From the NCBI GenBank assembly GCA_937930025.1, contig CALGJW010000371.1, forward strand, positions 1 to 37,152: a DNA stretch of 37,152 nt, given 5' to 3'. This stretch comes from an uncultured Saprospiraceae bacterium. GTDB lineage: Bacteria > Bacteroidota > Bacteroidia > Chitinophagales > Saprospiraceae. The position numbers were made by a program, and so were the translations under genes. Shown here one piece after another: positions 2,116-18,671 of the stretch (the stretch's first letter is position 1; every line of letters starts with the position of its first letter). Below the pieces are notes generated by a model. That model made no database searches. It was not told the DNA's origin and saw only the letters and a list, made by a program, of their open reading frames with translations.

Positions 2116-3189
2116 TTAATGAAGTATTCCAAGTTGCCTTCTCTCTTGTTCCATTGATTTAATTTCAGACAAATCTTGACTAATATTGATGACCTTGACG
2201 AACAAACCGAAAGTCAGTATAATGACTCCAATAATTGTAATTGGGCTAAATGTATTTTCTAAAGAACTGCCAAGTAGATACAATGAGATTTGAAAAATCA
2301 GAATTACAATGCACACTGTTTTATGGGAATCATAACGCTTTAAAAGAACATGATGTATATGCGTCTGATCCGCGTAAAAAGGGGATAACCCTTTCTGAAT
2401 CCTTCCGATACTTACTCTTAGTAAATCTAATATAGGAATAGACAAAAGGCTTAAACCTTGAACTACACTTTGGGTTGAAGTAAATTGTTGTGCAGGCAAA
2501 TTAATATATCGCAAGAAAAATATTGCGGCGAACAATCCCAAAATAGTTGAGCCATTATCGCCAAGAAAAATACTTGCCTTTCCAAAGTTGAAATTCAAAA
2601 ATCCCAAAAGCGATCCGCTTAATATCAAAGCTACAGTAGACCATGTTTGATTCCCAGCCACACTAAATAAATAAGCGAACACCAAAGAAACTACAAGTCC
2701 CAATCCTCCAGCTAAACCATTCACTCCGTCTATAAGATTAAAGGCATTAATTACTAACACAATAAAAAATAGTGATGTAATAATTTGAAAGGCAGCGGAG
2801 AAATTTCCGATTCCAAGTATTCCATAATCTAATTGAAAAGAATAGCCGGCAGCGACACAAAGTCCTGCGCAAATAAACTGAACAATAAGGCGCTTTTTTG
2901 CAGACATGGTTTTTACATCATCTATCAATCCTGTAGCAAATAGAATCAAAGTTCCAGCGAAAAGATAAACTGCACCAGCTATATTCAAATTCATTTTAGA
3001 ACAAACGATAGAAATCATAAAAGAAATAAAAATTGCTACACCACCCAACGCAGGAATAGGTTGCACATGTAGTTTTCGATCAGATGGAATATCATACAGT
3101 TTTAAATTCTTAGCTATTAGCTTGACTACTGGAATCAAACTATATGCAATTGAAAATGATATGAGAAAAAAAATGATTTCGTATTTCAT
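2116..3189 (-). CDS. Undecaprenyl-phosphate sugar-1-phosphate transferase, WecA/MraY-like
   Basis: Multi-TM protein with LHVQPIPALGGVAIF, LIDDVKTMSAKKR, NAFNLIDGVNGLAGG, FLGDNGSTILG and HIHHVLLKR motifs. Confidence 0.93.
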   Translation of the reverse strand: MKYEIIFFLISFSIAYSLIPVVKLIAKNLKLYDIPSDRKLHVQPIPALGGVAIFISFMISIVCSKMNLNIAGAVYLFAGTLILFATGLIDDVKTMSAKKRLIVQFICAGLCVAAGYSFQLDYGILGIGNFSAAFQIITSLFFIVLVINAFNLIDGVNGLAGGLGLVVSLVFAYLFSVAGNQTWSTVALILSGSLLGFLNFNFGKASIFLGDNGSTILGLFAAIFFLRYINLPAQQFTSTQSVVQGLSLLSIPILDLLRVSIGRIQKGLSPFYADQTHIHHVLLKRYDSHKTVCIVILIFQISLYLLGSSLENTFSPITIIGVIILTFGLFVKVINISQDLSEIKSMEQERRQLGILH

Positions 3190-3263
3190 GGCTAATAATT
3201 ATGAATAGTTGTGAACTAATTACTATTCAAATTTCAGCCAAATAGAAGTGTAAAAAGGTAAAT

Positions 3264-3296
3264 TTCGGAGTTTGGTATATATCTCGCGGAAATTGG
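3264..3296 (-). promoter_or_regulatory. 21-bp-period direct-repeat array D upstream of WecA-like gene
   Basis: Minus strand: CCAATTTCCGCGAGATATATA | CCAAACTCCGAA; repeats exactly 21 bp apart; GAAATTTG -7-like element ends at 3228. Confidence 0.65.
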
Positions 3297-3341
3297 TAAA
3301 ATGAGCGGTTTTAAGTGAAAATTATTAAAGCGGGAAAAGCA

Positions 3342-4463
3342 TTAATTCGGATATAATTCTTTCCGGACCTCTTTGAACATAGTAAAAATAATTAGCAACA
3401 CAACGATGAAAATCCCGCCAGAAAATCCTCCTTTCGCAGCTGCCAATTTATGATCTGGACGAAAGGGCACAATAGGGCTTATGCTTCGTTCCAACTCCTC
3501 TATGGTAATCGCACTTTGATCTCTATCAAGTTGTGCAATCTTCTGATGCTCTAAGGCGGCAAGGTAACCCGTTTTACTAATTTCGGCGTCAACCGAAAGT
3601 CTGTGTATCTTTTTTTCTATATAATTTATTGCTGAAATTTGCTTTGCCGTTAAAGGCTTTTCATCTGACCCTAATTCCAAAAGACGACCTCTTTTATCTT
3701 TATATTTATTTAATACTAAATATGTTTTCTTATAATGATTTGATAAGGAATCCGTTTCAGTTGACAAGGCAGAAAATGCTGATTGATTAGCAAACGAGAA
3801 TTTATTTAAAAGCAATTTATTGATCTCACTATATATTTCATCTATTAATAATATGGATAATTTTTCCGACGGACTAGAAACATTAATAGTTATAAATCCA
3901 AATTTGAAATCACCTGATATACTTATAAAACCATCTGAAAAATCAGAAATAGGAGTACTCACTTTAGCAATAACATCGTTGAGCACCTGACGCTCCGCTC
4001 TATCCATTTTATCTACTTCGTTATTTTTAAATTGAAAGTTATTAGGAATTTTACTAGGTAAACCTGATGGATTCAACTCAAAATAGTTTGCTAAATAAGT
4101 ATTGATTACGGAAGAGGTTGGATCATTCTCAACTTGAGGTTTTAGGAACACTCTAAACAACAATTGTTGATTGTTCATAAGCTTAGAAAAAACTTCTGTC
4201 ATGATCGCGTTATTTTTATCCACCTTAGGAAAGTTTACAAACACCTTAATACTTGCTGGATAAGTATCCACTAATTTATAAGTAGTATAAAAAAAGTAAC
4301 TCCCTAAAAGCAAACTACCCAGAGCTACCCAGTACCACGATTTTATAATCAACTGTAGATAGGTGATAAGCTTTAACAATAGCTTTCGTACAGAGATTTC
4401 ATCTACTCTATTTTCCGATATTATTGGTTCTGTTAATTGATTCATGTTGCTGTATTTAATCAA
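3342..4463 (-). CDS. Wzz-like chain-length determinant / polysaccharide co-polymerase
   Basis: Two terminal TM segments flanking a coiled-coil periplasmic region; proline-rich segment before TM2 (SPIVPFRPDHKLAAAKGGFSGGIFIVVLLIIF). Confidence 0.75.
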   Translation of the reverse strand: MIKYSNMNQLTEPIISENRVDEISVRKLLLKLITYLQLIIKSWYWVALGSLLLGSYFFYTTYKLVDTYPASIKVFVNFPKVDKNNAIMTEVFSKLMNNQQLLFRVFLKPQVENDPTSSVINTYLANYFELNPSGLPSKIPNNFQFKNNEVDKMDRAERQVLNDVIAKVSTPISDFSDGFISISGDFKFGFITINVSSPSEKLSILLIDEIYSEINKLLLNKFSFANQSAFSALSTETDSLSNHYKKTYLVLNKYKDKRGRLLELGSDEKPLTAKQISAINYIEKKIHRLSVDAEISKTGYLAALEHQKIAQLDRDQSAITIEELERSISPIVPFRPDHKLAAAKGGFSGGIFIVVLLIIFTMFKEVRKELYPN

Positions 4464-4521
4464 GTCAATCCAGCAATAATGAGTCCATTTATTCTCATAA
4501 TCAATTGAATATCAGACATCG

Positions 4522-4600
4522 ACGAAAACCGAACAGCTCAAAAACCAAAGTCCGAAAGCCTGGTTCCAAAAACCGAAGGATTCCTACCAAAAGGCGAAGA
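4522..4600 (+). promoter_or_regulatory. 21-bp-period direct-repeat array A upstream of the acyltransferase-wzx operon
   Basis: CCAAAGTCCGAAAGCCTGGTT (4545) | CCAAAAACCGAAGGATTCCTA (4566) | CCAAAAGGCGAAG (4587); extra upstream copy ACGAAAACCGAACAG at 4522. Confidence 0.8.
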
Positions 4601-4662
4601 AAAAAATGTTTTCTCTTTCTTGATCATAGCTTGTATTCAGAAATACCTAGAACAAAAGATCA

Positions 4663-5394
4663 ATGAAACCATATTTAACCGCAGCCATTTCCTTTTTCCT
4701 ACCAAGCTATCTGGCCATTAGAATATTAAGACTATTAGGCCATAACGTCTCAAACGAAGCATACATCGGATTCTCTTGGATCCAATGTGAAAAGCTTTTC
4801 CTAGATAAAAAGGCAAGCATTGGACACTTCAACTTAATTCGAATTGACAAGATTCAGATTGGAAAAGAAGGTTCAATAAGATCCTATAATCGGTTGAAGG
4901 GGCCCTTCGATTTGATCATGGGAGAAAAAGCAGCCATTGGTAATTCTAACAGTATATATCGTGGTCCATTTCCAATTACATGTGGAAGCGCAGCATTTAC
5001 ACTAGGAAAATTAACTATTGTCACAAGTAAGCATCAAATAGACTGTACAAAATCTATCAGCATTGGAGATTTCTCAACAATAAGTGGGTTTGGAACTCAA
5101 ATATGGACGCATGGATTTTACCATGCTGATCACGGCCCCTATCGTATTCGAATTGATGGGGAGATTATCATTGGTAAAAATGTTTCTATAGGCTCTCGTT
5201 GCTTATTGAATCCTGGCATACAAATCGTCGATGCTATCAATGTTGGAGGAAATGCCTGCGTTTCAAAATCTTTAATTGCTCCTGGCATGTATGTTTCACA
5301 TGCCTTGCGTCACATTCCCAATGATATAAAAACAATAAAAAGAAAACTTACTAGGAATCAAACCAACAAATATGTTGAAGTCTATGAAAAGTAA
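4663..5394 (+). CDS. Left-handed beta-helix (hexapeptide) acyltransferase
   Basis: Hexapeptide-like repeats (ISIGDFSTISGFGTQIWTHGFYHADHGPY, IIIGKNVSIGSRCLLNPGIQI) in a polysaccharide locus. Confidence 0.8.
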   Translation: MKPYLTAAISFFLPSYLAIRILRLLGHNVSNEAYIGFSWIQCEKLFLDKKASIGHFNLIRIDKIQIGKEGSIRSYNRLKGPFDLIMGEKAAIGNSNSIYRGPFPITCGSAAFTLGKLTIVTSKHQIDCTKSISIGDFSTISGFGTQIWTHGFYHADHGPYRIRIDGEIIIGKNVSIGSRCLLNPGIQIVDAINVGGNACVSKSLIAPGMYVSHALRHIPNDIKTIKRKLTRNQTNKYVEVYEK

Positions 5395-6694
5395 ATTCCA
5401 AACTTTAGCATTCAAGCAAAATTTTTCTTTCCAAGAAGTAAAAAGAATTTCTCTTTTTACATTGAACTTTGGTGGATTAAAATTAAATGCGATTTCTGCG
5501 GCCTTAATCTTATCCAATTTTTTTACAACACTAGAAGAATTTGGCAGCTTTGAATATGCTCTTTCATTAGGGCTGATGTTTACCGTTCCTTTTAATCTCG
5601 GATTGCATGGAGCTATTCCCTACTTTTTCCTAAAACAAAATAAGAAAGATTATGATTCGGTTTTCTATTTCCACGGGATCATACTCCTAATACTTTTCAT
5701 ATTTGCAAGTAGCACATACTTCTTATTAGTTGGTTTTCAAATCTCTTGGATTGGCCTCTCCATTACAATTGCCATTATTTTCTCGTTACAAATATTAGCC
5801 TCTGTAATTTCTAAAACAAATGGTCGCATTTACCAATCCGTATGGCTAGACAGCACTTTCTTTTTATTGCTAAACGGATACAATCTTTATTTGTTTATCT
5901 TTTCTACCACCGCTTCATTAGCCGTTATTCAAGTTTTACTTTTAATCCAGCTTACTTTACTCTCCATATATTATTGCCTTCGATTTTACATCCATAGTGC
6001 TGAATTTAGCTGGAAAAAATATTTTACAGCCATTGAATTTGGAAAACCATTAGTTGTAAGTTCATTACTAATTATTGGATTAACGGGAAGTGGCAGAATA
6101 TTTATTGAATATTTCTTTGATCTTTCTGCAGTAGCTATTTATGGAATCTATTTTCGACTAGCAATGGTCGTTGTGCTATTTCATCAAATAGTCAATATCG
6201 CATACTTTAAAAAGATATATGCCAGCGAAAGCAAGAAGCTAGATCCATGGATCCAATATTTTTTGATAGCGATTATCATTCTTAGTTTGTTTATACATTT
6301 ATTAATTCCCTCTTTAGCACAGATCATCTTTGAAAGTGTTCGACTGAGTTGGCAAGTTTCCAAATCATTATTTATAGCATTAAGTTTTCAAATGTTCTTT
6401 TGGATTTGCCTTTCCTTATTTGAAAACATTATTGCAAGAGAAAATTTAGCATCGGCATTCAATAAAATTATTATCTACCTAATTATACTAATGATCTCCA
6501 TTTTTACAATAAGCAATCATCTATATTTTTTAACCATAACAAATCTCGTATTAATAAATTCTTTCACTATCTATTTAGCAATTGAATCGCAATTGAAATT
6601 ATTAAATAATAACAATATTTATTTTCCGAAATCAAGGTTTTTAGTTCGGGCAGTCTCCTTAACACAAATCATTTTTCTATGTTTTTTAAAATAA
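5372..6694 (+). CDS. Wzx-like polysaccharide flippase (multi-TM)
   Basis: 440-aa protein with about 12 hydrophobic segments between glycan genes; overlaps the upstream gene by 23 bp (alternative ATG at 5387). Confidence 0.72.
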   Translation: MLKSMKSKFQTLAFKQNFSFQEVKRISLFTLNFGGLKLNAISAALILSNFFTTLEEFGSFEYALSLGLMFTVPFNLGLHGAIPYFFLKQNKKDYDSVFYFHGIILLILFIFASSTYFLLVGFQISWIGLSITIAIIFSLQILASVISKTNGRIYQSVWLDSTFFLLLNGYNLYLFIFSTTASLAVIQVLLLIQLTLLSIYYCLRFYIHSAEFSWKKYFTAIEFGKPLVVSSLLIIGLTGSGRIFIEYFFDLSAVAIYGIYFRLAMVVVLFHQIVNIAYFKKIYASESKKLDPWIQYFLIAIIILSLFIHLLIPSLAQIIFESVRLSWQVSKSLFIALSFQMFFWICLSLFENIIARENLASAFNKIIIYLIILMISIFTISNHLYFLTITNLVLINSFTIYLAIESQLKLLNNNNIYFPKSRFLVRAVSLTQIIFLCFLK

Positions 6695-6701
6695 TCTAAT
6701 C

Positions 6702-8060
6702 ATGAATATTTGCTTTATTTCGAATTTCAGTAAAACGATTCTTTTAACTTCGGTTGCCAAATCCTTACGCAAAAAAGGGATCAAAGTTTATTGGATAGCA
6801 TGCAATCAAAAACGCTACCATCAACTATGCGAAGATTTTGGAACGACCCAAGTACTACTAATTAATCGATCGAACATTGGTAAAGCGAACAACATAGTCG
6901 GGGATTTCAAAATAAATGAATTAGTATTTGGTGATCGTGTATTGCGACATGATTTCAAAAGCGGTGTTGAATTTTTGAAAAATATTCAAAGACCAATTTT
7001 TGGCTTCTTAAGTGAAAATAAGATTGAAAAAGTCTATGGTGAAGTGACCTGGGCGCATGAGTTACTTATACATAGAATGTGTAGTCAAATGAAATCGCTT
7101 AACTGCCAATTTCTAAACCCTCATGTCGTTCGAATTCCCAATCAACGCTTTGCCTTCTTTACAGATGAAAAACAAAGTCAATTATTAGAACAAAATAAAC
7201 TATGGGACTCAAACACAAAAACAATAGTCCCAAAACCCCCAAATTATTTAAAAATAAATCATAAAATTCTTAGAAGAGCAAGTTCTTGGAAAGGTAAGTT
7301 TTCTAGGATAAAAAGATTTTTCACTAATGAAAATATGGATCATCTTGATCCAACACTTATTGCGAATTCAAAAATTCGTATAAAAATTAGTGCCAAAGAA
7401 GAATGGCGCAGATGGCAATATAAAAATGTCAAGACAATTAAAGATTTAGAGTTGAAAAATCTAAATTATTTATTCTTAGGGCTTCATAAACAACCAGAAG
7501 CATCTGTAGATGTCTTAGGTCGATACTATGAAGATCAATATCAGAATATCATTAATCTCTGGAGAGCCTTACCAGAAGGATGGTCTTTTGTTATAAAAGA
7601 ACATTCAATTGCCATTGGAGATAGAGCGTTGGCCTTCTATAAAAAAATACAAGCATTGCCAGGGATAATACTTGTCAATGAACAAATGCCTTCTTATGAA
7701 TTAATTAAGCACGCTCAACTTGTGGCAACCGTATCTGGAACGATTGCATACGAAGCTGCATTGATGGGAATTCCCGCCATCACCTTCGCACCTTGCTTTT
7801 TCAATCGTTTGAATTGTTGCACAAATGTTGGGCTAGAAGATCTTGATAAAAACAATTTGGTACAGATCGCTAACAGTTTGTCACAAAATCCAAATAATGT
7901 AAAAAGCTTCTCAAAATATTTGTATACCAATTCATTTATTGGAAACGTACTTGATCCAATTTCTGATCCTAATGTACTGAACGAAGAAAATATAGAACTG
8001 TTAACCAACGCTTTTCTCCAAACCCTCATTAGTGTTGAAATAAATATCGCCGTTTTATGA
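6702..8060 (+). CDS. Capsule polysaccharide biosynthesis-like protein (Capsule_synth / KpsC-KpsS-like), putative glycosyltransferase
   Basis: FLGLHKQPEAS, LPEGWSFVIKEHSIAIGDRALAFYKKIQALPGIILVNE and VATVSGTIAYEAALMGIPAITFAPCFF resemble the Capsule_synth family core. Confidence 0.65.
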   Translation: MNICFISNFSKTILLTSVAKSLRKKGIKVYWIACNQKRYHQLCEDFGTTQVLLINRSNIGKANNIVGDFKINELVFGDRVLRHDFKSGVEFLKNIQRPIFGFLSENKIEKVYGEVTWAHELLIHRMCSQMKSLNCQFLNPHVVRIPNQRFAFFTDEKQSQLLEQNKLWDSNTKTIVPKPPNYLKINHKILRRASSWKGKFSRIKRFFTNENMDHLDPTLIANSKIRIKISAKEEWRRWQYKNVKTIKDLELKNLNYLFLGLHKQPEASVDVLGRYYEDQYQNIINLWRALPEGWSFVIKEHSIAIGDRALAFYKKIQALPGIILVNEQMPSYELIKHAQLVATVSGTIAYEAALMGIPAITFAPCFFNRLNCCTNVGLEDLDKNNLVQIANSLSQNPNNVKSFSKYLYTNSFIGNVLDPISDPNVLNEENIELLTNAFLQTLISVEINIAVL

Positions 8061-9334
8061 ACAGCTTAACAATTTCAAATCCAAGTAGTTTTTCTTCCTT
8101 TAGCAATAAAGAGAAATGGAACGTTGTGCTTTTAATTCTGCTTTCTTTTTCAGGCATAAGTGTGCTTACCATTGGGAAGGCCATACTTACCCCCTTTCAT
8201 TTATTAATAGGCTTCCACATAGTTTATGGGTTTTTGGCAAGTAATAAATTGGAGAAAAATATATCTATTCCTCTTTTACTTTTTATGCTTTATGTGCTTG
8301 GAATAAATCTCTTACAATACGATAGCATTCGGCCAACTTCTGTACTATATACTTTAATATTCTGTGTTGAAGCCACCATTTTTTTCAACTTACTAAAGAA
8401 CTGCAGAATTTCGGCCATTATCTATGCGCTAAAATTAATTATCATTTTATATTTCATAAATATATTCTTCGGTTTTTGCTTTGATCTTATCCAATTCAAA
8501 AGCGAATTTGTTTTAAAATTCATTAAAGTATATTATGAAAAAGGAATCTCTAATGGAAGACCAATGGGTTTTTCATCAGAACCTTCCTATGCATCATTTA
8601 TTTTAAGCGTTTCATTTCTTTGTTATAGTCACCTTACAAATCACAAACAAAATCGAAAATCTTTTTTTCTCTTTGGCTCAATTGTAGGGTCAATTATTCT
8701 TAGCAAATCTGCCTACGGTTTTATTTTCTTATCTGTCATTGCATTGGACTGGGCTTTGGTTTTTTATCGCACAGGAGACAAATTATTTAGGCTAATATTT
8801 CCACTTATTACAATACTAGCTTTTGCTGGCATTATTTTTTTTCTTTCCAATTCCGGCAATGAAGGAGTCCAGCGGCTTTTCAAATTCAGTTCTGCTTTGG
8901 TAGACAATTCCGTTGATGGCAAAGCAAAGCTTATAAAGCTCCAAGAAGCTGATGGATCTGCCTTTGCTCGAATCGCACCGACCTACTTATTATTTAATAG
9001 TGCTCCTGAAAACAATTTCAACTTCCTACTAGGAGAAGGTGCCGGAGCTTCAGGTACTTTTTTAAGTACCTTCCTAACAGGCATATTAGTAGACGAAGGA
9101 CGTGAGTCTGTAGACACGGGAATCATGCCAGCGTTGATATTTGACTATGGCGTTATTGGAAGCTTTTTGTTTCTACTCTTTCTCATTTTCACCTTTAAAT
9201 ATTTATCCTTTTCCTTTTGGCTCCTTTTCCTACTAATAATACCCAATGCAAACATTAATACGCAATTGATCTGGTTTGCAATCATTTGTTACTCATTTGT
9301 TTCCATTGCAACACCGTCCTTAAGAAAGAATTAA
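8057..9334 (+). CDS. O-antigen polymerase/ligase-like membrane protein (Wzy/WaaL type)
   Basis: Multi-TM, with large loop and GRPMGFSSEPSYASFIL / LLGEGAGASGTF motifs; ATGA overlap with upstream gene. Confidence 0.72.
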   Translation: MNSLTISNPSSFSSFSNKEKWNVVLLILLSFSGISVLTIGKAILTPFHLLIGFHIVYGFLASNKLEKNISIPLLLFMLYVLGINLLQYDSIRPTSVLYTLIFCVEATIFFNLLKNCRISAIIYALKLIIILYFINIFFGFCFDLIQFKSEFVLKFIKVYYEKGISNGRPMGFSSEPSYASFILSVSFLCYSHLTNHKQNRKSFFLFGSIVGSIILSKSAYGFIFLSVIALDWALVFYRTGDKLFRLIFPLITILAFAGIIFFLSNSGNEGVQRLFKFSSALVDNSVDGKAKLIKLQEADGSAFARIAPTYLLFNSAPENNFNFLLGEGAGASGTFLSTFLTGILVDEGRESVDTGIMPALIFDYGVIGSFLFLLFLIFTFKYLSFSFWLLFLLIIPNANINTQLIWFAIICYSFVSIATPSLRKN

Positions 9335-9339
9335 AATCG

Positions 9340-9381
9340 CCAAAAATCGAATGATAATGGTCAAAAATCGAACTATAATTT
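9340..9381 (+). promoter_or_regulatory. 21-bp-period direct-repeat array C upstream of the GT4 gene
   Basis: CCAAAAATCGAATGATAATGG (9340) | TCAAAAATCGAACTATAATTT (9361); TAATTTG ends at 9407. Confidence 0.75.
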
Positions 9382-9427
9382 TTGGCACTGATTTATTCAA
9401 TAATTTGAACAGGTAATATTAAATATT

Positions 9428-10552
9428 ATGGAAAAGAAAAAAATACTAATAGATGCTCGATGCATCGGAGGGGAAGGTCAGGGAATGATGACATACATCG
9501 TAGGGTTATACAATGAGATGTTTTACAATTTTGGAAACCGCTATGAGTTCTATTTCGCGGGTTATAACTACAAAGAGTTTCGAGCCAATTTTCCTTGGTT
9601 AAAGCAATCGAATTTTATTCAAATCCGAACTTCATCAAAATGGTCTCTTTTCACAAAGGTATTTCCAAAAATTATAAAAGATTATAAAATTGAGTATGCA
9701 CATTTTCAATACGTTACGCCATTTATCAAAAAATGCAAGCAAATCGTAACTACTCATGATGTGCTGTTTCTTGATTTCCCAGAGGAGTTCTCTTTAGCTT
9801 ATAGGCTAAAACGAAAATTTTTATTTAAACTTTCTCTACTTCGCTCTGAAATTCGCTTGACTGTTTCGAATTATTCTAGAAATAAAATCGCTGATCATTT
9901 TTCTCTGATGCCAAGCACCATCTCCATCACCCCAAATGCAGTAAACGAGAACTTTTTAAAATCTTACGATAAGTCCCTAGCTCAAAAGGAAGTAGAGCAG
10001 ATATTCGGAATCAAAAAATACATCCTTTATGTCAGTCGAATTGAACAGAGAAAAAATCAGCTTGGGCTTCTAAAAGCATATGAAAAATTAAACCTAGCTA
10101 CCAAAGGCTATCAGCTTCTTCTAATAGGAAATGACACGCTAGGCGAAAAGTCCATTTCAAAAGAAATCCTTCAGTTTCAAAAAACTTATCCCAATCAAGT
10201 TCATTGGTTAAAAAATTTGACAGAAGAAGATTTGATTAAAATCTATCAAGGCGCTGAGATCTTTGTTTATCCTTCTAAAGCTGAAGGGTTTGGTATTCCA
10301 CCGATAGAAGCAGCAGCACTAGGAATCAATACTCTTTGCGCTTCGAATACAGCAATGCAAGATTTTTCTTTTTTCGGTAGTAATCTTTATAACGATTCCA
10401 AAATAGAAAATCTCCATAGCGTATTAGATAAAAATCTCCAACAACCTCCCAGTCCCATCAAATTAAAAAGCATATCGAATCAGATAAAAGAGCATTATTC
10501 CTGGCTTAAAGCAGCCCAAGTCCTAGATGGCGAGATTATGAAGGCCCAGTAA
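9428..10552 (+). CDS. GT4 family glycosyltransferase
   Basis: ILYVSRIEQRKNQLGLLKAYEKL and FVYPSKAEGFGIPPIEAAALG motifs. Confidence 0.9.
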   Translation: MEKKKILIDARCIGGEGQGMMTYIVGLYNEMFYNFGNRYEFYFAGYNYKEFRANFPWLKQSNFIQIRTSSKWSLFTKVFPKIIKDYKIEYAHFQYVTPFIKKCKQIVTTHDVLFLDFPEEFSLAYRLKRKFLFKLSLLRSEIRLTVSNYSRNKIADHFSLMPSTISITPNAVNENFLKSYDKSLAQKEVEQIFGIKKYILYVSRIEQRKNQLGLLKAYEKLNLATKGYQLLLIGNDTLGEKSISKEILQFQKTYPNQVHWLKNLTEEDLIKIYQGAEIFVYPSKAEGFGIPPIEAAALGINTLCASNTAMQDFSFFGSNLYNDSKIENLHSVLDKNLQQPPSPIKLKSISNQIKEHYSWLKAAQVLDGEIMKAQ

Positions 10553-10565
10553 ATAAAGGACTTTT

Positions 10566-10621
10566 ATCAAATCCGAAAGGAATCTACCAAAAGCCGAAGC
10601 AAACCTACCGAAAGCCGAAAA
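10566..10621 (+). promoter_or_regulatory. 21-bp-period direct-repeat array B upstream of pseB
   Basis: ATCAAATCCGAAAGGAATCTA (10566) | CCAAAAGCCGAAGCAAACCTA (10587) | CCGAAAGCCGAAAA (10608); CATCTTTG ends at 10656. Confidence 0.8.
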
Positions 10622-10701
10622 CCTCCCGTTTTTCCTTCTAATCACCTGCATCTTTGAGTTATAATTAACAACAAATTATCAATTCAGTAAAAAAATAAAC
10701 C

Positions 10702-11757
10702 ATGTTAAATTTAAATGGCCAGTCAATTTTAGTAACAGGAGGAACAGGATCTTTCGGAAAAAAATTCATTGAAAATGTACTTACTCGTTTTCCAAAAGTA
10801 AAGCGAGTTGTTGTCTACAGTCGGGACGAATTAAAGCAATACGAAATGATGCAAAAATTTTCTCCAGCGAAGTATCCTGCAATGCGTTATTTCATCGGTG
10901 ACGTTAGAGACCTAGATCGACTAAAGCAAGCTTGTCAAGGAATCGATTATATCATTCATGCTGCAGCGTTAAAACAAGTTCCAGCTGCTGAATACAATCC
11001 TACCGAATGTATTAAAACGAATGTAGGAGGATCACAGAATATCATTGAAGCTGCACTAGCAACTAATGTTAAAAAAGTTGTTGCGCTTTCTACAGATAAA
11101 GCAGCAGCTCCAATCAACCTATATGGTGCAACTAAGCTTTGTTCAGATAAACTATTTGTTTCTGGAAACAATATGAGAGGGGATCGGGATTTAAGTTTTT
11201 CCGTTGTTCGATACGGAAATGTTGCGGGCTCCCGAGGATCTGTAATGCCATTTTTTCTAGAAAAAAGAAAAGAAGGATTCTTACCTATCACACATAAAGA
11301 AATGACGCGATTCAACATCTCCTTACAAGGTGGAGTTGACTTAGTTTTCTTTGCACTAAACAAAGCCATCGGAGGAGAAATATATGTATCTAAACTTCCT
11401 TCTTATAACCTCGGTACGCTGGCAACCGCTATTGCTCCTGATTGTGAGCAACGAGTAGTAGGTATTCGACCAGGCGAAAAGCTTCACGAAGAGATGATTA
11501 CTCCATCTGATAGTTTCAACACCATCGAACTAGACGAGCATTATATCATCTGCCCAACGAATCTCAATTTTCAAGGAATTGACAAGAACACATATCTAGC
11601 GCATTACACAGCGCAAAACGCCAAATGCGTTCCAGTTGGATTTAGTTACAACTCTGGAGAAAATGAGGACTGGTTGAATATAGAAGATATTCGAAAGATT
11701 GTGAAAGAAGAAGTGGATCCTTCCTTTCAAATTAAAGCTGCTTCCCTAGCCGCATAA
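10702..11757 (+). CDS. pseB: UDP-N-acetylglucosamine 4,6-dehydratase (inverting)
   Basis: NGQSILVTGGTGSFGKKFIENVL, STDKAAAPINLYGATKLCSDKLF and GIRPGEKLHEEMI; followed by pseC/F/I homologues. Confidence 0.95.
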   Translation: MLNLNGQSILVTGGTGSFGKKFIENVLTRFPKVKRVVVYSRDELKQYEMMQKFSPAKYPAMRYFIGDVRDLDRLKQACQGIDYIIHAAALKQVPAAEYNPTECIKTNVGGSQNIIEAALATNVKKVVALSTDKAAAPINLYGATKLCSDKLFVSGNNMRGDRDLSFSVVRYGNVAGSRGSVMPFFLEKRKEGFLPITHKEMTRFNISLQGGVDLVFFALNKAIGGEIYVSKLPSYNLGTLATAIAPDCEQRVVGIRPGEKLHEEMITPSDSFNTIELDEHYIICPTNLNFQGIDKNTYLAHYTAQNAKCVPVGFSYNSGENEDWLNIEDIRKIVKEEVDPSFQIKAASLAA

Positions 11758-11780
11758 TCAATCATAAAAATAAATTAACC

Positions 11781-12980
11781 ATGCATATTCCTTATGGCCG
11801 ACAGAATATAACAGCGGAAGATATTTCAGCAGTTGTAAAGGCCTTAAAATCGGATTACTTAACACAAGGACCACTAGTCAAACAATTCGAAGAAAAATTT
11901 GCTAACTACGTTGGATCAAAATATGCGATAGCTGTTTCCAATGGTACCACCGCGCTACACTTAGCTGCGAAAGTTTTAGGAACAAAAAAAGGATCAAAAG
12001 TAATTACAACTCCCTTGACTTTTGCCGCGACAGCTAATTGTATTGAATACTGCGAAGGAGAAGTACACTTTACTGATATTGATCCCGATACACTTACGCT
12101 TGACATCAATAAAGTTCGAAAATTATTGAGCGAAAACCCTAGAGGAACCTTTAGCGGCATCATCCCAGTAAGTTTTGCAGGTTACCCAGTAGATCTAGAG
12201 GCATTTAGAAAATTAGCTGACGAATATGGTTTGTGGATAATTGAAGATGCATGTCATTCTCCAGGCGCTAGATTTTTAGATTCGAGTAACACTTGGCAAA
12301 AGTGTGGAAATGGACAGTATGCTGACTTGAGTGTTTTTTCTTTTCATCCCGTCAAACATATTGCTTGTGGAGAAGGAGGTATGCTTACTTGTAATGATGA
12401 AAAATTGTATAAGCTATTGTTGGAGTTAAGAACGCATGGCATTACCAAAGACCCTTCACTTCTTTTAGAAAACCACGGTGGATGGTACTACGAAATGCAA
12501 ACATTAGGATACAATTACCGCCTCACAGACATCGCAAGTGCGTTAGGCATTTCACAACTAGATCGTGCAGAGAACGGTGTCCAAAGGCGCAAGGAAATTG
12601 CGAGAATTTATGATGAAGCTTTTGCAGATACAACTATCAAAAGTGTTTTTGTACCCAATGATATTGAGCACGCCTATCACTTGTATGTAATTCAGGTCAA
12701 GGATAGAAAATCACTCTATGATTATCTGATCTCAAAGGGAATAGGCGTTCAAGTACATTACTACCCTGTTCATTTAATGCCTTACTATAAAATCAAAGGA
12801 TGGCGAAAAGGAGATTGTCCTGTTGCCGAAAACTATTATGAGCAATGTTTGAGTATTCCAATGTTCCCCACTTTAAGTTCTGACGAACAAGTAACCATTA
12901 TTAATCTAATCAAATCTTTTTACAATGAGAAAGTTAGCTATAATACCAGCAAGAGGCGGAAGCAAGAGATTACCGCGTAA
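11781..12980 (+). CDS. pseC: UDP-4-amino-4,6-dideoxy-N-acetyl-beta-L-altrosamine transaminase
   Basis: IPYGRQNITAEDISAVVKALKSDYLTQGP and PLP-lysine motif FSFHPVKHIACGEGGM. Confidence 0.95.
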   Translation: MHIPYGRQNITAEDISAVVKALKSDYLTQGPLVKQFEEKFANYVGSKYAIAVSNGTTALHLAAKVLGTKKGSKVITTPLTFAATANCIEYCEGEVHFTDIDPDTLTLDINKVRKLLSENPRGTFSGIIPVSFAGYPVDLEAFRKLADEYGLWIIEDACHSPGARFLDSSNTWQKCGNGQYADLSVFSFHPVKHIACGEGGMLTCNDEKLYKLLLELRTHGITKDPSLLLENHGGWYYEMQTLGYNYRLTDIASALGISQLDRAENGVQRRKEIARIYDEAFADTTIKSVFVPNDIEHAYHLYVIQVKDRKSLYDYLISKGIGVQVHYYPVHLMPYYKIKGWRKGDCPVAENYYEQCLSIPMFPTLSSDEQVTIINLIKSFYNEKVSYNTSKRRKQEITA

Positions 12981-13635
12981 AAATATCAAAAATTTCATGG
13001 GTCAACCAGTCATCGGTTATCCTATCAGAGCAGCCTTCCAATCAAAATTATTTGACGAGGTAATGATCTCTACAGATGATGATGAAATTGCTGACATCGG
13101 AAAATTAATGGGTGCCTCTATACCATTTTATCGCTCTGGTGAAAATTCTTCAGATGTAGCAACAACTGTAGATGTCCTCTTAGAAGTTATCGAGTATTAT
13201 CAAAAAAAGGGAATTAGATTCTCTCATGCTTGTTGTATCTATCCAACTTCACCGCTACTATCAGTTTATGATCTTAGAGCAGCTTACAACAAAATGATTC
13301 AACAAAATTTCGACACAGTGGTGCCAGTTACAAAGTTTTCCTATCCAATTCAACGATCGCTTTCGTTGGACCCTGGGAAACGCTTACAAATGGCTTTACC
13401 AGAATTCAAAAATACTCGAACACAAGATCTAGCAGATAGTTATCACGATGCCGGTCAATTTTACTGGTTTGATGTAAAAAAAATGCAAAAAAATAAATCT
13501 CTTTTCACCGGTAACACTGGCGCAATCATTCTTCCTGAACAAAATGTTCAAGACATTGATACAGAAGATGATTGGAAATTAGCAGAAATGAAATACAAAC
13601 TTTTAAATCCATATCATGAAATTTCTACTATATAA
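12925..13635 (+). CDS. pseF: Pseudaminic acid cytidylyltransferase
   Basis: N-terminal MRKLAIIPARGGSKRLPRKNIKNFMGQPVIGYPI CMP-sialate-synthetase signature; 56-bp overlap with pseC. Confidence 0.93.
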   Translation: MRKLAIIPARGGSKRLPRKNIKNFMGQPVIGYPIRAAFQSKLFDEVMISTDDDEIADIGKLMGASIPFYRSGENSSDVATTVDVLLEVIEYYQKKGIRFSHACCIYPTSPLLSVYDLRAAYNKMIQQNFDTVVPVTKFSYPIQRSLSLDPGKRLQMALPEFKNTRTQDLADSYHDAGQFYWFDVKKMQKNKSLFTGNTGAIILPEQNVQDIDTEDDWKLAEMKYKLLNPYHEISTI

Positions 13636-14170
13636 TTCGAAATATTGGGCAAAGGAAAATTCACTTTCCGTTCAACCCACCAGTTATATACAAAACTTAA
13701 CATTCAATTTTCGACTAGCAACCCATAGGAATATTTATCAATATTTTTTCTGGACTAATGACCCTGGAACACGAAAGCAGTCTTTTAATTCAAAGCGAAT
13801 TTCCTTTGCCGAACATTGTAAATGGTTTAATTACCAAATGGAAAACAAAGAAACTGTGATGATTATTATGTATTCGGGGAAACAAAATATAGGTCAAATA
13901 AGGTTTCAACTCAAAGACAATATTGCCAAGATCAATTACTCACTTGACAACAAATTTCGAGGAAATGGCCTAGCTACTAAACTAATTACAGGTGGTATAA
14001 AACATCTACTCACCCTTAAACCTGACATTCAACAAATTGAAGGATTTGTCAAATTGAACAACTATCCTTCGATTAAAACATTTCGAAGAATTGGCTTTGA
14101 AGAGTGTCTTCTTTTAAAGCACAATAACACCATTAAATTTAAAATTGATCAACCAAAAAATTTATCATGA
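13616..14170 (+). CDS. GNAT N-acetyltransferase, PseH-like by context
   Basis: GNAT-like elements (SLDNKFRGNGLATKLITGGIKHL, NNYPSIKTFRRIGFEE); between pseF and pseI with overlapping ends. Confidence 0.75.
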   Translation: MKFLLYNSKYWAKENSLSVQPTSYIQNLTFNFRLATHRNIYQYFFWTNDPGTRKQSFNSKRISFAEHCKWFNYQMENKETVMIIMYSGKQNIGQIRFQLKDNIAKINYSLDNKFRGNGLATKLITGGIKHLLTLKPDIQQIEGFVKLNNYPSIKTFRRIGFEECLLLKHNNTIKFKIDQPKNLS

Positions 14171-15210
14171 AAGAAATTAACATAGCAGGAAGAAAAATCG
14201 GACCAGATCACAAACCTTTTATCATAGCGGAAATGTCTGGAAATCATAATCAATCTCTTGACAGAGCTTTGGAAATTGTAGAGGCGGCTTCTAAAGCAGG
14301 AGCGGATGCAATTAAATTGCAAACCTATACTGCCGAAACGATGACCATTCGTGGAGCACATACAATTGAAGACTCCGAATCACTTTGGAAAGGTCAAGAA
14401 TTATTTGAATTGTATGAAATGGCACATACTCCATGGGAATGGCATCAGGCTATATTCAACCGAGCTAAGGAATTAGGAATGATCGCCTTTAGTTCACCTT
14501 TTGATGCAAGTGCCGTCGATTTCTTAGAAAGTCTGGATGTCCCAGCTTACAAAGTAGCATCTTTCGAAAATACAGATCATCCACTTCTTAAAAAAATTGC
14601 TCAAACCGGAAAACCAGTCATCATGTCTACTGGAGTTAGTTCCTTAACCGACATTGATGAAGCCGTAGGCGTTTTAAAATCAAATGGCTGTAAAGAACTA
14701 GTTCTTCTAAAGTGTACCAGTACTTATCCCGCTAGTCCATCAACTTGCAACATTGCTACATTACCACATTTAGCTCAATTATTTGAAAATACGCTTGTCG
14801 GTCTTTCTGATCATACCATGGGATTGGCAGTGCCCATTACAGCCGTTTCATTAGGAGCTTGTGTCATAGAAAAACATTTTACTTTAAGCCGCGCAGACGG
14901 CGGTGTAGACAGTGCGTTCTCAATGGAACCTGAAGAACTTCGTCAATTAGTTATCGAAACTGAAAGAGCTTCATTGGCATTAGGAAAGGTTCAATACGGG
15001 GTTCAAAAGTCTGAAGAAAAAAGCAAGAATTTTAAACGGTCCATTTATGTAGTCAAAGAAATCCTTCCTGGTGAAAAATTAACAGAAAAAAACACGCGGA
15101 TTATTCGTCCAGGATTCGGTTTGGAACCCAAACGATATGATGAAATTCTTGGAAGAACGGCCACTCAAAAAATTGCAGCTGGCACTCCCCTACATTGGCA
15201 ATTCATATAA
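14167..15210 (+). CDS. pseI: Pseudaminic acid synthase
   Basis: PFIIAEMSGNHNQSLDRALEIVEAASKAGADAIKLQTYTAETMTI, GLSDHTMGLAVPITAVSLGACVIEKHFTLSR; C-terminal SAF domain. Confidence 0.95.
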   Translation: MKEINIAGRKIGPDHKPFIIAEMSGNHNQSLDRALEIVEAASKAGADAIKLQTYTAETMTIRGAHTIEDSESLWKGQELFELYEMAHTPWEWHQAIFNRAKELGMIAFSSPFDASAVDFLESLDVPAYKVASFENTDHPLLKKIAQTGKPVIMSTGVSSLTDIDEAVGVLKSNGCKELVLLKCTSTYPASPSTCNIATLPHLAQLFENTLVGLSDHTMGLAVPITAVSLGACVIEKHFTLSRADGGVDSAFSMEPEELRQLVIETERASLALGKVQYGVQKSEEKSKNFKRSIYVVKEILPGEKLTEKNTRIIRPGFGLEPKRYDEILGRTATQKIAAGTPLHWQFI

Positions 15211-15299: not shown

Positions 15300-15839
15300 A
15301 TGAAAGGCATTGTATTCACAGAATTCCTAGAAATGGTTGAAAATCAGCATGGTTATGAATTGGTAGATACTATTATTGAAGAGTCCGATTTACCGTCAAA
15401 AGGCATATACACTGCAGTTGGTACATATCCTCACCAAGAGATGGTTCAGCTACTTATGAGTCTCAGCTCAAAAACGTCTACGCCGGTTCCAAATCTATTG
15501 AGGTCATTTGGCCACTATTTGTTCAACACTTTTCTTAAATCTTATCCAGGGTTTTTCGAATCGGCGCCTACTGGGTTTCATTTTTTAGAATCCATCGAGA
15601 ATCACATTCATGTGGAGGTAAAAAAATTGTATCCCGATGCTCAACTCCCAAATTTCGAAACGCAGCGATTAGACCATAATACATTGGAAATGATCTATAA
15701 GTCTGATCGCCATATGTCAGATTTTGCGCTTGGGCTTATTGAGAAAACCATGGAGCACTATCAAGAGACTGCAAACATAGAAGTACAGGGAGATCCAAGC
15801 AATAGAAGTTCCGTAACCTTTATCATCAAAAAAGTGTAG
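15300..15839 (+). CDS. H-NOX haem NO-binding sensor protein
   Basis: MKGIVFTEFLEMVENQHGYELVD N-terminus, proximal-His region ENHIHVEVKKLYPDAQLP (His104) and YxSxR motif Y133-KSD-R137. Confidence 0.94.
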   Translation: MKGIVFTEFLEMVENQHGYELVDTIIEESDLPSKGIYTAVGTYPHQEMVQLLMSLSSKTSTPVPNLLRSFGHYLFNTFLKSYPGFFESAPTGFHFLESIENHIHVEVKKLYPDAQLPNFETQRLDHNTLEMIYKSDRHMSDFALGLIEKTMEHYQETANIEVQGDPSNRSSVTFIIKKV

Positions 15840-17965
15840 TGAAGGAAATTGATTTATTAAAGAAGAAAATAGCACGAGAGAAAAGTGCACGTAAAGCAGC
15901 TGAACGCATTCTTGAAGAACGTGCCCTGCAGCTTTATGAATCAAATGAAAAACTTAGGAAACTTAATATTGAGCTTGAAATAAAAGTCGAAAAGCGAGCC
16001 AAACAGTTAATCAAAAGTGAAGAAAAATATAGAGGCATTATTGAAAACATGGAACTTGGTCTCCTAGAAGTTGATAATGATCAAATGATAATTAAAGCCT
16101 ATAAATGGTTTTGTGATATGACCGGTTATCGAGAAGATGAGTTAATCGGGAAAAATGCTCAAACCGTATTTCTAAGTAAAACAAGACATCATACAATAAT
16201 TAGCCAAGAGCAAACAAAACGAATTAAGGGCCAGGCTGGAGTTTATGAAATTCAAATTAAACATAAACAGGGACATTTAATTTGGGTAATGATTAGTGGT
16301 TGCCCTGTCTATGATGCAGATGGAAATGTCTGTGGATCAATGGGTATACACTACGATATCACTCGTCAAAAGAAACTACAAAAAGCTTTACTAGAAGCCA
16401 AAAAGGTAGCAGAAAATGCACAAAAAGCAGAGCAATTATTTTTAGCTAAAATGAGTCATGAAATACGAACTCCTTTAAATGCGATAATAGGAATGACTCA
16501 TCTACTGAATGCAACCAAGCCGAGTGAAGAACAAAAAGACTATTTAAAAATATTAAGAGATTCTTCTGGGATTTTAAAATTACTGATTTCAGATATTCTT
16601 GATTTCTCAAAAATACAGGCAGGAGAATTAGAAGTTCAAAAAAGTGAATTCAATCTTTCTATTTTAATTTCCAGATTACTAAAAGCAGTTCAGTCTCAAA
16701 TTGATGGAAAAGATATTAAGGTAAAATCAAACATAGATCCTAATCTGAAAAACCTAATCATAGGAGACGAACTTTTGCTTAATCAAATATTAATAAATCT
16801 TTTAAGCAATGCAGTAAAGTTTACGAAAAAAGGAAGCATTATTCTAAATGTGGTTATTTCAAGCCAATCCGAATCTGAAATTTCTGTTGAATTTCAAATT
16901 TGCGATACAGGTAGAGGAATCGAAAAAGGAAAAACGGATCTTATTTTCCAAAAATTCAAACAAGTTTCTAGCACGGATAAAGATAAATACAATGGAACAG
17001 GATTAGGCCTTGCCATAACAAAGCAGTTAGTAGAACTCCAAAATGGAACAATCGAGTTAACCTCCAAGAAAAATAAAGGATCAACTTTTTCTGTATTCCT
17101 AAATTATGAAAAAGGTGGGCTACAAACAGACGAAGATGATTTGATTCCTAATAAATATTTAGAACAAAAATTTAACAAGCAAAAAATCCTAGTTGTTGAG
17201 GACAACTACATGAATCGTAAATATATTTTAACACTACTTTCTAAATGGAATTTAGACTACGAAGTGGCTGTAGACGGGATGGAAGCAATAGCAATTACAA
17301 AAACCAAAAAATTCGATTTAATCTTCATGGACATTTCAATGCCTATTCTTAACGGATACGAGGCTACCAAAAAGATTCGAAAAATATCCAATCCTAATCA
17401 AGAGACAACTATCATTGCACTATCAGCTTCTGCATTTGTAACAAAAAAAGAGAAAGCTATCTCTATCGGGATGACTGATTTCCTCTGCAAACCCTTCGAC
17501 CCTCAAAGTTTGTTTAGACTACTTGTCCAATATCTTAATCCTCAAATAGAAAATATTTCTTCTGAAAACAAACCCCAAAGCAACATTTTTCCATTGCCAA
17601 TTAACGCACAACAAATAGAATTGTTATATGGCGATAATTGGTCTATGGCGTTTGAAATGTTTAACATATTCCTGAAAAACAGCCTTCCTAGTTTCGAAAA
17701 ATTCAAGCGGCTGGCTGATTCGGAAAATTTTGTAGCGGTAAAAAATTTAGCCCACAAATTAGCACCAAATTTAGCAATGGTTGGCTTAATGAAAACCCAA
17801 GACCGTTTATTAAATCTTGAATCCATGGCCCATCAACCAACAGATAAAGAAGGCATACGAAAACTCATTGACGAAATAATAAATGATTTGCAATTGGCTA
17901 AACCTATAGTAGAAAAATGTTTGATTGCTCTCCAAGAACAATCAAAACTTACACAAACAACTTAA
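15839..17965 (+). CDS. Soluble hybrid histidine kinase: coiled coil-PAS-HisKA-HATPase-REC-Hpt
   Basis: GTG start overlapping H-NOX stop (TAGTG). PAS region; MSHEIRTPLNAIIGMTHLL H-box; GTGLGLAITKQLVELQNG; REC DLIFMDISMPILNGYEATKKIR; Hpt LAHKLAPNLAMVGL. No obvious TM segment. Confidence 0.93.
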   Translation: MKEIDLLKKKIAREKSARKAAERILEERALQLYESNEKLRKLNIELEIKVEKRAKQLIKSEEKYRGIIENMELGLLEVDNDQMIIKAYKWFCDMTGYREDELIGKNAQTVFLSKTRHHTIISQEQTKRIKGQAGVYEIQIKHKQGHLIWVMISGCPVYDADGNVCGSMGIHYDITRQKKLQKALLEAKKVAENAQKAEQLFLAKMSHEIRTPLNAIIGMTHLLNATKPSEEQKDYLKILRDSSGILKLLISDILDFSKIQAGELEVQKSEFNLSILISRLLKAVQSQIDGKDIKVKSNIDPNLKNLIIGDELLLNQILINLLSNAVKFTKKGSIILNVVISSQSESEISVEFQICDTGRGIEKGKTDLIFQKFKQVSSTDKDKYNGTGLGLAITKQLVELQNGTIELTSKKNKGSTFSVFLNYEKGGLQTDEDDLIPNKYLEQKFNKQKILVVEDNYMNRKYILTLLSKWNLDYEVAVDGMEAIAITKTKKFDLIFMDISMPILNGYEATKKIRKISNPNQETTIIALSASAFVTKKEKAISIGMTDFLCKPFDPQSLFRLLVQYLNPQIENISSENKPQSNIFPLPINAQQIELLYGDNWSMAFEMFNIFLKNSLPSFEKFKRLADSENFVAVKNLAHKLAPNLAMVGLMKTQDRLLNLESMAHQPTDKEGIRKLIDEIINDLQLAKPIVEKCLIALQEQSKLTQTT

Positions 17966-17975
17966 ATCCAAAAAA

Positions 17976-18671
17976 ATGAAATGTATCATTGTAGATGACG
18001 ACTTGATGGCTCGAAAATCTTTGGAGCATCTTTGCAATAAGGTAGACTTTCTATCTGTAGAACGATTATGTGAAAATGGTGATGAGGCGCTCAAGGCTTT
18101 AAGTGAATGCCAACCTGATTTAGTTTTTCTAGACATGGAAATGCCTGAAGTAACTGGAATAGAATTTCTGGAAGCCGCGCCAGTCCTTCCGCAAGTAATT
18201 TTCTTTACAGCGAAAAAAGAATTTGCCCTCCAAGCATTTGATTATGACGTCACTGACTTTTTACAAAAACCAACAAACTTTCCAAGGTTTAAAAAAGCTG
18301 TTGATAAAGCATACCAAATATATTTATCGGAAGCCCCAAAAATGACATCTATTGCTGAACAAAAAGACATTTATATTCGCGAGGAAGGAAAATTATGTCG
18401 AATCAACCAAGATGACATTCTTTATTTCGAAAACATAGGAGACTACATAAGGATTAAAACCGTTTCCAAAGCACACCTCATTCACGGTACGCTAAAAAGT
18501 TTACTCTTAAAACTAAAAAATCCAAATTTCATCAAAGTCCACCGATCTTATGTTATTAATTTGAACAAGATTGAAGACATTGAGGATAACAGTTTATTAA
18601 TCGGCAAGAAAGTCATTCCAATAAGCAGGGTGAATAAACCGCTGTTATTGCAACAATTGAATTTACTTTAA
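17976..18671 (+). CDS. LytTR-family response regulator
   Basis: REC (MKCIIVDDDLMARKSLEHL, DLVFLDMEMPEVTGIEFLE) plus LytTR (DDILYFENIGDYIRIKT, FIKVHRSYVINLNKIEDIE). ORF track starts at 17925, but the REC domain starts at the ATG at 17976. Confidence 0.94.
   Translation: MKCIIVDDDLMARKSLEHLCNKVDFLSVERLCENGDEALKALSECQPDLVFLDMEMPEVTGIEFLEAAPVLPQVIFFTAKKEFALQAFDYDVTDFLQKPTNFPRFKKAVDKAYQIYLSEAPKMTSIAEQKDIYIREEGKLCRINQDDILYFENIGDYIRIKTVSKAHLIHGTLKSLLLKLKNPNFIKVHRSYVINLNKIEDIEDNSLLIGKKVIPISRVNKPLLLQQLNLL

Follow-up and report, generated by a model that had tools for sequence, protein, structure and literature searches.

This analysis concerns four intergenic repeat arrays, and the regulator that may bind them, in a 37,152-nt stretch of DNA from an uncultured Saprospiraceae bacterium (contig CALGJW010000371.1 of assembly GCA_937930025.1). 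This stretch, referred to here as the window, makes up an entire contig (C371) in a metagenome-assembled genome (MAG) of 5.0 Mb and 637 contigs, which is about 74% complete. Among relatives with a name, the closest are uncultured Saprospiraceae. The genes of the window start with a glycosyltransferase, a wecA-like transferase and a chain-length-type protein, followed by a group of acyltransferase-like, flippase-like, glycosyltransferase-like and polymerase-like genes, and then by another glycosyltransferase and the pseB-C-F-H-I genes. The pseudaminic acid genes are followed on their 3' side by an operon (15300-18671) for an H-NOX protein, a hybrid histidine kinase and a LytTR response regulator. 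All four arrays are made of TACCAAAAnnCGAA-like units, repeated with a period of exactly 21 bp as direct repeats that point at the gene downstream. The features of the locus are as follows:

2116..3189, minus strand: wecA-like glycosyl-1-phosphate transferase gene (PF00953), predicted target of array D
3228..3235, minus strand: −7-like element GAAATTTG of array D, 28 nt past the last unit
3264..3298, minus strand: array D, a pair of units, TACCAATTTCCGCG and TACCAAACTCCGAA, with 21-bp spacing, ahead of the wecA-like gene
4543..4598, plus strand: array A, three units (4543, 4564, 4585) 21 bp apart
4626..4633, plus strand: −7-like string ATAGCTTG of array A, weak, 27 nt past the last unit
4663..9334, plus strand: putative operon behind array A, gene order kept in relatives
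4663-5394, plus strand: acyltransferase-like gene of this operon
5372-6694, plus strand: flippase-like gene of this operon
6702-8060, plus strand: glycosyltransferase-like gene of this operon
8057-9334, plus strand: polymerase-like gene of this operon
9338..9372, plus strand: array C, two units 21 bp apart
9400..9407, plus strand: −7-like element ATAATTTG of array C, 27 nt past the last unit
9428..10552, plus strand: glycosyltransferase gene (PF00534), predicted target of array C
10564..10619, plus strand: array B, three units (10564, 10585, 10606) 21 bp apart
10649..10656, plus strand: −7 element CATCTTTG of array B, 29 nt past the last unit
10702..15210, plus strand: pseudaminic acid genes (pseB, pseC-like, pseF-like, pseH-like, pseI-like), predicted target of array B
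10702-11757, plus strand: pseB, equivalog-level match (491.7 bits against a cut-off of 407.8)
15300..15839, plus strand: H-NOX heme gas-sensor gene (PF07700)
15839..17965, plus strand: hybrid histidine kinase (PAS-HisKA-HATPase-REC, weak Hpt match)
17961..18671, plus strand: LytTR response regulator (REC + LytTR), putative array-binding protein; the earliest TTG start of its open reading frame (ORF) is at 17925

Array A has an additional degenerate unit at 4520-4533 (core 4530), with a spacing of 23 bp. The original prediction, made from the letters of the window, had placed CGAA cores at 4553, 4574 and 4595 in array A, at 9348 and 9369 in array C, at 10574, 10595 and 10616 in array B, and, on the minus strand, CGCG at 3288 and CGAA at 3267 in array D. 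All of them were found at these positions; the distal unit of array D, with its CGCG core, is weak. The −7-like strings also end where they had been reported, at 4633, 9407, 10656 and, on the minus strand, 3228, i.e., 38-40 nt past the last core. Their likeness to the Bacteroidota box TAnnTTTG held for B and D, which fit with at most one mismatch, but not for A (three mismatches) and C (two mismatches). The calls of the genes behind the arrays (an acyltransferase group, a GT4 gene, pseB and a wecA-like gene) were supported, that of pseB at the equivalog level; the flippase and polymerase calls in the acyltransferase operon are based solely on position and hydrophobicity, with no Pfam match.

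A position weight matrix built from the units found 6 pairs in the window versus 0.5 per window in Markov-simulated sequences. A pair pattern with up to three mismatches matched five pairs in the 5.0-Mb assembly, all of them inside the window, and its reversed version, used as a control, matched none. A genome scan of this kind had been named beforehand as a test that could refute the prediction, and it came out in favor of it, with the pair present only at this locus. Patterns to which the downstream TTTG was added recovered A, B, C and D, and the other matches were heptanucleotide repeats and isolated, chance-like ones. Since the pair pattern was seen only in the window, the regulon of this MAG appears to be confined to the polysaccharide/pseudaminic acid locus, although the assembly lacks about a quarter of the genome.

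The locus has counterparts in another species of the genus and in two more genera. An array was found before pseB in 8 of the 8 loci, from three genera, in which the region upstream of pseB was readable, bearing out the conservation at orthologous loci. When these regions were aligned, conservation was seen mainly in the two units and in the TTT of the −7 box, and most of the other intergenic DNA had diverged. The relatives also have arrays ahead of wecA-like, acyltransferase-like and glycosyltransferase genes. Another genus has two species (loci L084 and L085) whose H-NOX/kinase/LytTR operon lies amid unrelated genes, and arrays still flank it. As arrays accompanied the operon there without shared neighbors, we tested their association with it across the family.

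The sample comprised 295 Saprospiraceae genomes, with orthologues of the LytTR regulator called at 200 bits or more. A first, looser pattern also matched heptanucleotide repeats, and we therefore adopted a stricter pair pattern that requires T-A at the start of the unit, which removed nearly all such matches. Repeats of this kind, with a 7-bp period, lie in the MAG studied here (G000, at C6:4160, C393:3637 and C599:628), and also in G075, G093 and G246. The strict pattern detected 92 pairs in 46 genomes, versus 12 genomes with the reversed control. The array was present in 36 of the 81 genomes with the LytTR orthologue and in 10 of the 214 without it (nominal p 3e-15), and likewise in 39/118 genomes with H-NOX versus 7/177 without it (nominal p 2e-11); matches of the control pattern were associated with neither. 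At the genus level, arrays occurred in 25/40 genera with the orthologue versus 4/72 without it, or 22/37 versus 4/72 when the three genera with the pse locus were left out. In genomes with the orthologue, 42 of 83 pairs, in 24/37 genomes, were located no more than 15 kb from the regulator (0.46 expected), and arrays lay near it in genera without the polysaccharide locus too. In 55/83 genomes, H-NOX and the LytTR orthologue lay no more than 6 kb apart. Twenty regulator neighborhoods, mostly missed by the strict pattern, yielded 17 degenerate pairs versus 2 in the reversed control, and most of these pairs had a −7-like element at the right distance. LytTR paralogues were considered as other partners and rejected: 0 of the 13 paralogues in array-bearing genomes, as counted by hand, had arrays nearby. 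Among 199 genomes of the order, those outside Saprospiraceae gave just three-mismatch matches, not above the control, and the operator is therefore treated as family-specific.

The geometry of the promoters was examined in 95 arrays from 24 genera, with at most one mismatch to TAnnTTTG allowed. The box begins 28-29 nt past the last unit in 59/95 arrays (22/24 genera), compared with a mean of 0.7 at other offsets. Thus, the fixed distance from array to −7 element, proposed for the four promoters of the window, was upheld family-wide. The spacing among good units was 21 bp in 90 cases, 20 bp in 1 and 42 bp in 14. A period of 21 bp corresponds to two helical turns and puts the repeats on one face of the DNA. 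This period fits that of LytTR operators, in which repeats of 9-11 nt are separated by 11-13 nt (PMC4847170), but the conserved core is 12-14 bp long here and the linker 7-9 bp. The arrays match the general LytTR layout, whose direct repeats lie two turns from each other and share no common sequence (PMC4847170, PMC11347149). As TAnnTTTG of Flavobacterium psychrophilum was mapped to −12 to −5 (PMC9723704), the last unit would be at about −55 to −42 and the center of the pair at about −59; the promoter-proximal repeats of AgrA are centered near −60 (PMC4227749). No −33 element was conserved in the aligned array promoters, which, together with the predicted end of the arrays at about −42, points to the geometry of an activator.

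A variant of the −7 element, CATCTTGC, replaces TAnnTTTG at the same distance at L084:8727, L085:12772, L086:8961 and L192:7435. The genes behind these promoters are single-receiver-domain genes and a gene for a protein sorted by the type IX secretion system (T9SS). The variant resembles the TAnnTTGY (SM5) box of F. psychrophilum, which was attributed to an alternative sigma factor (PMC9723704).

The LytTR regulator matches PF00072 (8.5e-20) and then PF04397 (1e-18). The five best structural matches of its AlphaFold2 model (mean predicted local distance difference test score 83.7) were all full-length ComE, and this fold search was more informative than a sequence search of PDB, which returned mainly receiver domains. 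Residues H194 and R195 are invariant in 34 relatives. The H-NOX protein matches PF07700 (1.5e-43); its alignment with solved H-NOX proteins places the proximal heme histidine in HVEVKKLYP, and its YxSxR motif is present as YKSDR. Among solved structures it is nearest to 6BDD/6BDE, of which 6BDD is the H-NOX protein of Kordia algicida (PMC7356049).

Taken together, these comparisons of sequences make it quite likely that the arrays serve as operators for the H-NOX-linked LytTR response regulator encoded at 17961-18671. This supports the original prediction that the promoters are activator-dependent and under one LytTR-family regulator, as the array co-occurs and co-localizes with that protein family-wide, and goes beyond it in that the input of the regulon is likely a heme gas sensor. 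We infer that the H-NOX protein, most likely through nitric oxide (NO), gates the hybrid kinase, and that the kinase would phosphorylate the LytTR protein via a REC-Hpt relay. The regulator would then occupy two or three units, from about −76 to −42, replacing a recognizable −33 element, and, once bound, would recruit RNA polymerase. In this way the wecA-like initiating transferase, the export/polymerization group, the glycosyltransferase and the pseudaminic acid genes would be turned on together. By analogy with Shewanella and Vibrio fischeri, in which NO-bound H-NOX inhibits the kinase (PMC6769237), NO may turn the regulon down. Several points speak against the assignment of the arrays to this regulator. 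In 28/95 arrays there is no TTG at the expected place, and the unit is unlike the classical LytTR consensus, which comes from Firmicutes. Strict arrays occur in under half of the regulator-bearing genomes, with degenerate ones in many others; the genomes are related, so that the p-values overstate independence; and, at 74% completeness, the MAG may be missing more targets.

It is also conceivable, albeit rather unlikely, that the arrays are bound by the LytTR protein within a circuit wired in another way, in which the protein acts as a repressor, H-NOX reports oxygen or redox state, or NO raises activity. LytTR proteins can repress when their site overlaps −35, as does CoxC (PMC11347149), and the ligand and its effect vary among H-NOX proteins (PMC8738867, PMC6769237). 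However, arrays that end at about −42 without a conserved −33 element have the geometry of an activator, and the kinase-linked H-NOX proteins studied to date respond to NO (PMC8738867).

We consider it improbable that another regulator, e.g., one of the AraC type, binds the arrays and that their link to the H-NOX operon reflects co-regulated targets. The I1-I2 half-sites of AraC are also spaced 21 bp apart, and the arrays are not usually ahead of the H-NOX operon itself. Still, the H-NOX, kinase and LytTR families were the only ones common to nearly all array loci, with no other regulator family among them: of 23 array-bearing loci, 23 had the kinase, 21 LytTR and 21 H-NOX, the next commonest ORF family being present in 12. 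Within the window, no AraC-family gene was detected among the 30 ORFs scanned. It is scarcely credible that the arrays have no regulatory role and represent repetitive DNA or A-rich repeats arisen by chance. In favor of this view, the CCGAAAT/TCGAATG tandem heptanucleotides of several Saprospiraceae, including this genome, partly match loose patterns. Against it, an array has two or three copies, is nearly always intergenic, faces a gene, and keeps a fixed distance to the −7 box; moreover, the arrays are kept at orthologous promoters while the flanks diverge, and track one regulator.

The predicted regulon of the LytTR protein in other genera is not restricted to polysaccharide genes, which extends the original prediction. 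The first genes behind arrays in these genera include those for glycosyltransferases, an acyltransferase and STAS-domain proteins (the latter followed by polysaccharide flippases), and also for single receiver domains, TPR proteins and T9SS-sorted DUF4114 or GEVED proteins, so that the shared theme of the targets elsewhere is cell surface and signaling. In the large genomes G045 and G196 (L201-L206, L213-L215), the operator occurs at six or seven scattered sites, several of which precede secreted-looking proteins; this scatter indicates that the size of the regulon varies strongly between genera.

Some arrays are followed by no ORF but by a short stretch ending in a hairpin like that of an intrinsic terminator, which suggests small RNAs; an Rfam search of these stretches gave no match. 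In genome G116, five tandem cassettes of about 285 bp lie directly 3' of the LytTR gene (L194:6546-7730, minus strand). Each has an operator pair with 21-bp spacing, a TCTTTG −7 element 29 nt downstream, and about 180 nt without a convincing ORF, followed by the terminator-like hairpin AACGGGCAAGTCACATAATGTGGCTTGCCCGTTTTC. The cassettes have the appearance of a tandem series of five small-RNA genes controlled by the array operator. Other ORF-less arrays with such a hairpin are at L208:6806 and L209:6135 (minus strand), L210:3567 (minus strand) and L188:17520 (plus strand). The stretch CAAGTGGTTAAGTTTAGGTCATGATTATT, common to L208 and L209, suggests a conserved small RNA of that genus.

A wider reading, which we hold tentatively, is that of a family-wide, gas-gated H-NOX/LytTR regulon with a two-turn operator rigidly tied to a −7 box. 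It would include surface polysaccharide genes, STAS and receiver-only signaling proteins, T9SS cargo and, in several genera, small-RNA genes such as the five-copy cassette by the regulator, and would form the LytTR equivalent of the LuxO-Qrr and HnoC circuits. Little is known of the operators and regulons of Bacteroidota, and Saprospiraceae are encountered mostly as MAGs. For this one circuit, sequences from about 25 genera allow the sensor, kinase, regulator, operator, promoter geometry and targets to be read. The circuit would link a heme gas sensor to the synthesis of surface polysaccharide, including pseudaminic acid, by direct transcriptional control and not by cyclic-di-GMP. It also offers sharp and cheap tests, namely of the binding protein, of the effect of NO, and of the importance of the 21-bp spacing and the 28-29-nt distance. 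As the switch and its putative docking sites travel together through these genera, the whole circuit is testable now.

The arrays resemble known LytTR operators (those of AgrA, ComE and YpdB, and the RcoM1/CoxC triplets) in being direct repeats that recur after two helical turns and precede the core promoter. In both cases there are two or three copies, with the pair centered near −60, and a REC + LytTR protein with a ComE-like fold. They differ from them in unit sequence (TACCAAAAnnCGAA), in their longer conserved core (12-14 bp) and in their rigid coupling to the Bacteroidota TAnnTTTG box. The predicted input also differs, being an H-NOX/hybrid kinase here and a peptide- or metabolite-sensing LytS-type kinase in the known systems.

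Capsular polysaccharide loci of Bacteroides are controlled by invertible promoters and UpxY/UpxZ. The locus described here shares with them the coordinated control of a Bacteroidota surface-polysaccharide locus, but seems to rely for this on a fixed activator operator located at several internal promoters. No invertible promoter was met at the locus, although no search was aimed at one.

In its sensor part, the circuit is similar to Shewanella HnoX-HnoK (with HnoB/HnoD and the transcription factor HnoC) and to Vibrio H-NOX-HqsK/HahK, as a stand-alone H-NOX gene lies beside genes for a histidine kinase and a response regulator, and the output is tied to surface or biofilm functions. In contrast to the characterized H-NOX systems, whose outputs are mainly cyclic-di-GMP enzymes or quorum sensing (PMC6769237, PMC8738867), this circuit has as its output a DNA-binding LytTR regulator whose predicted operator is recognizable family-wide. 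Our literature search found no paper on an H-NOX-linked LytTR output or on pseudaminic acid in Saprospiraceae. The array/regulator circuit is best seen as a variant within two known kinds, LytTR operators and H-NOX circuits, and not as a category of its own.

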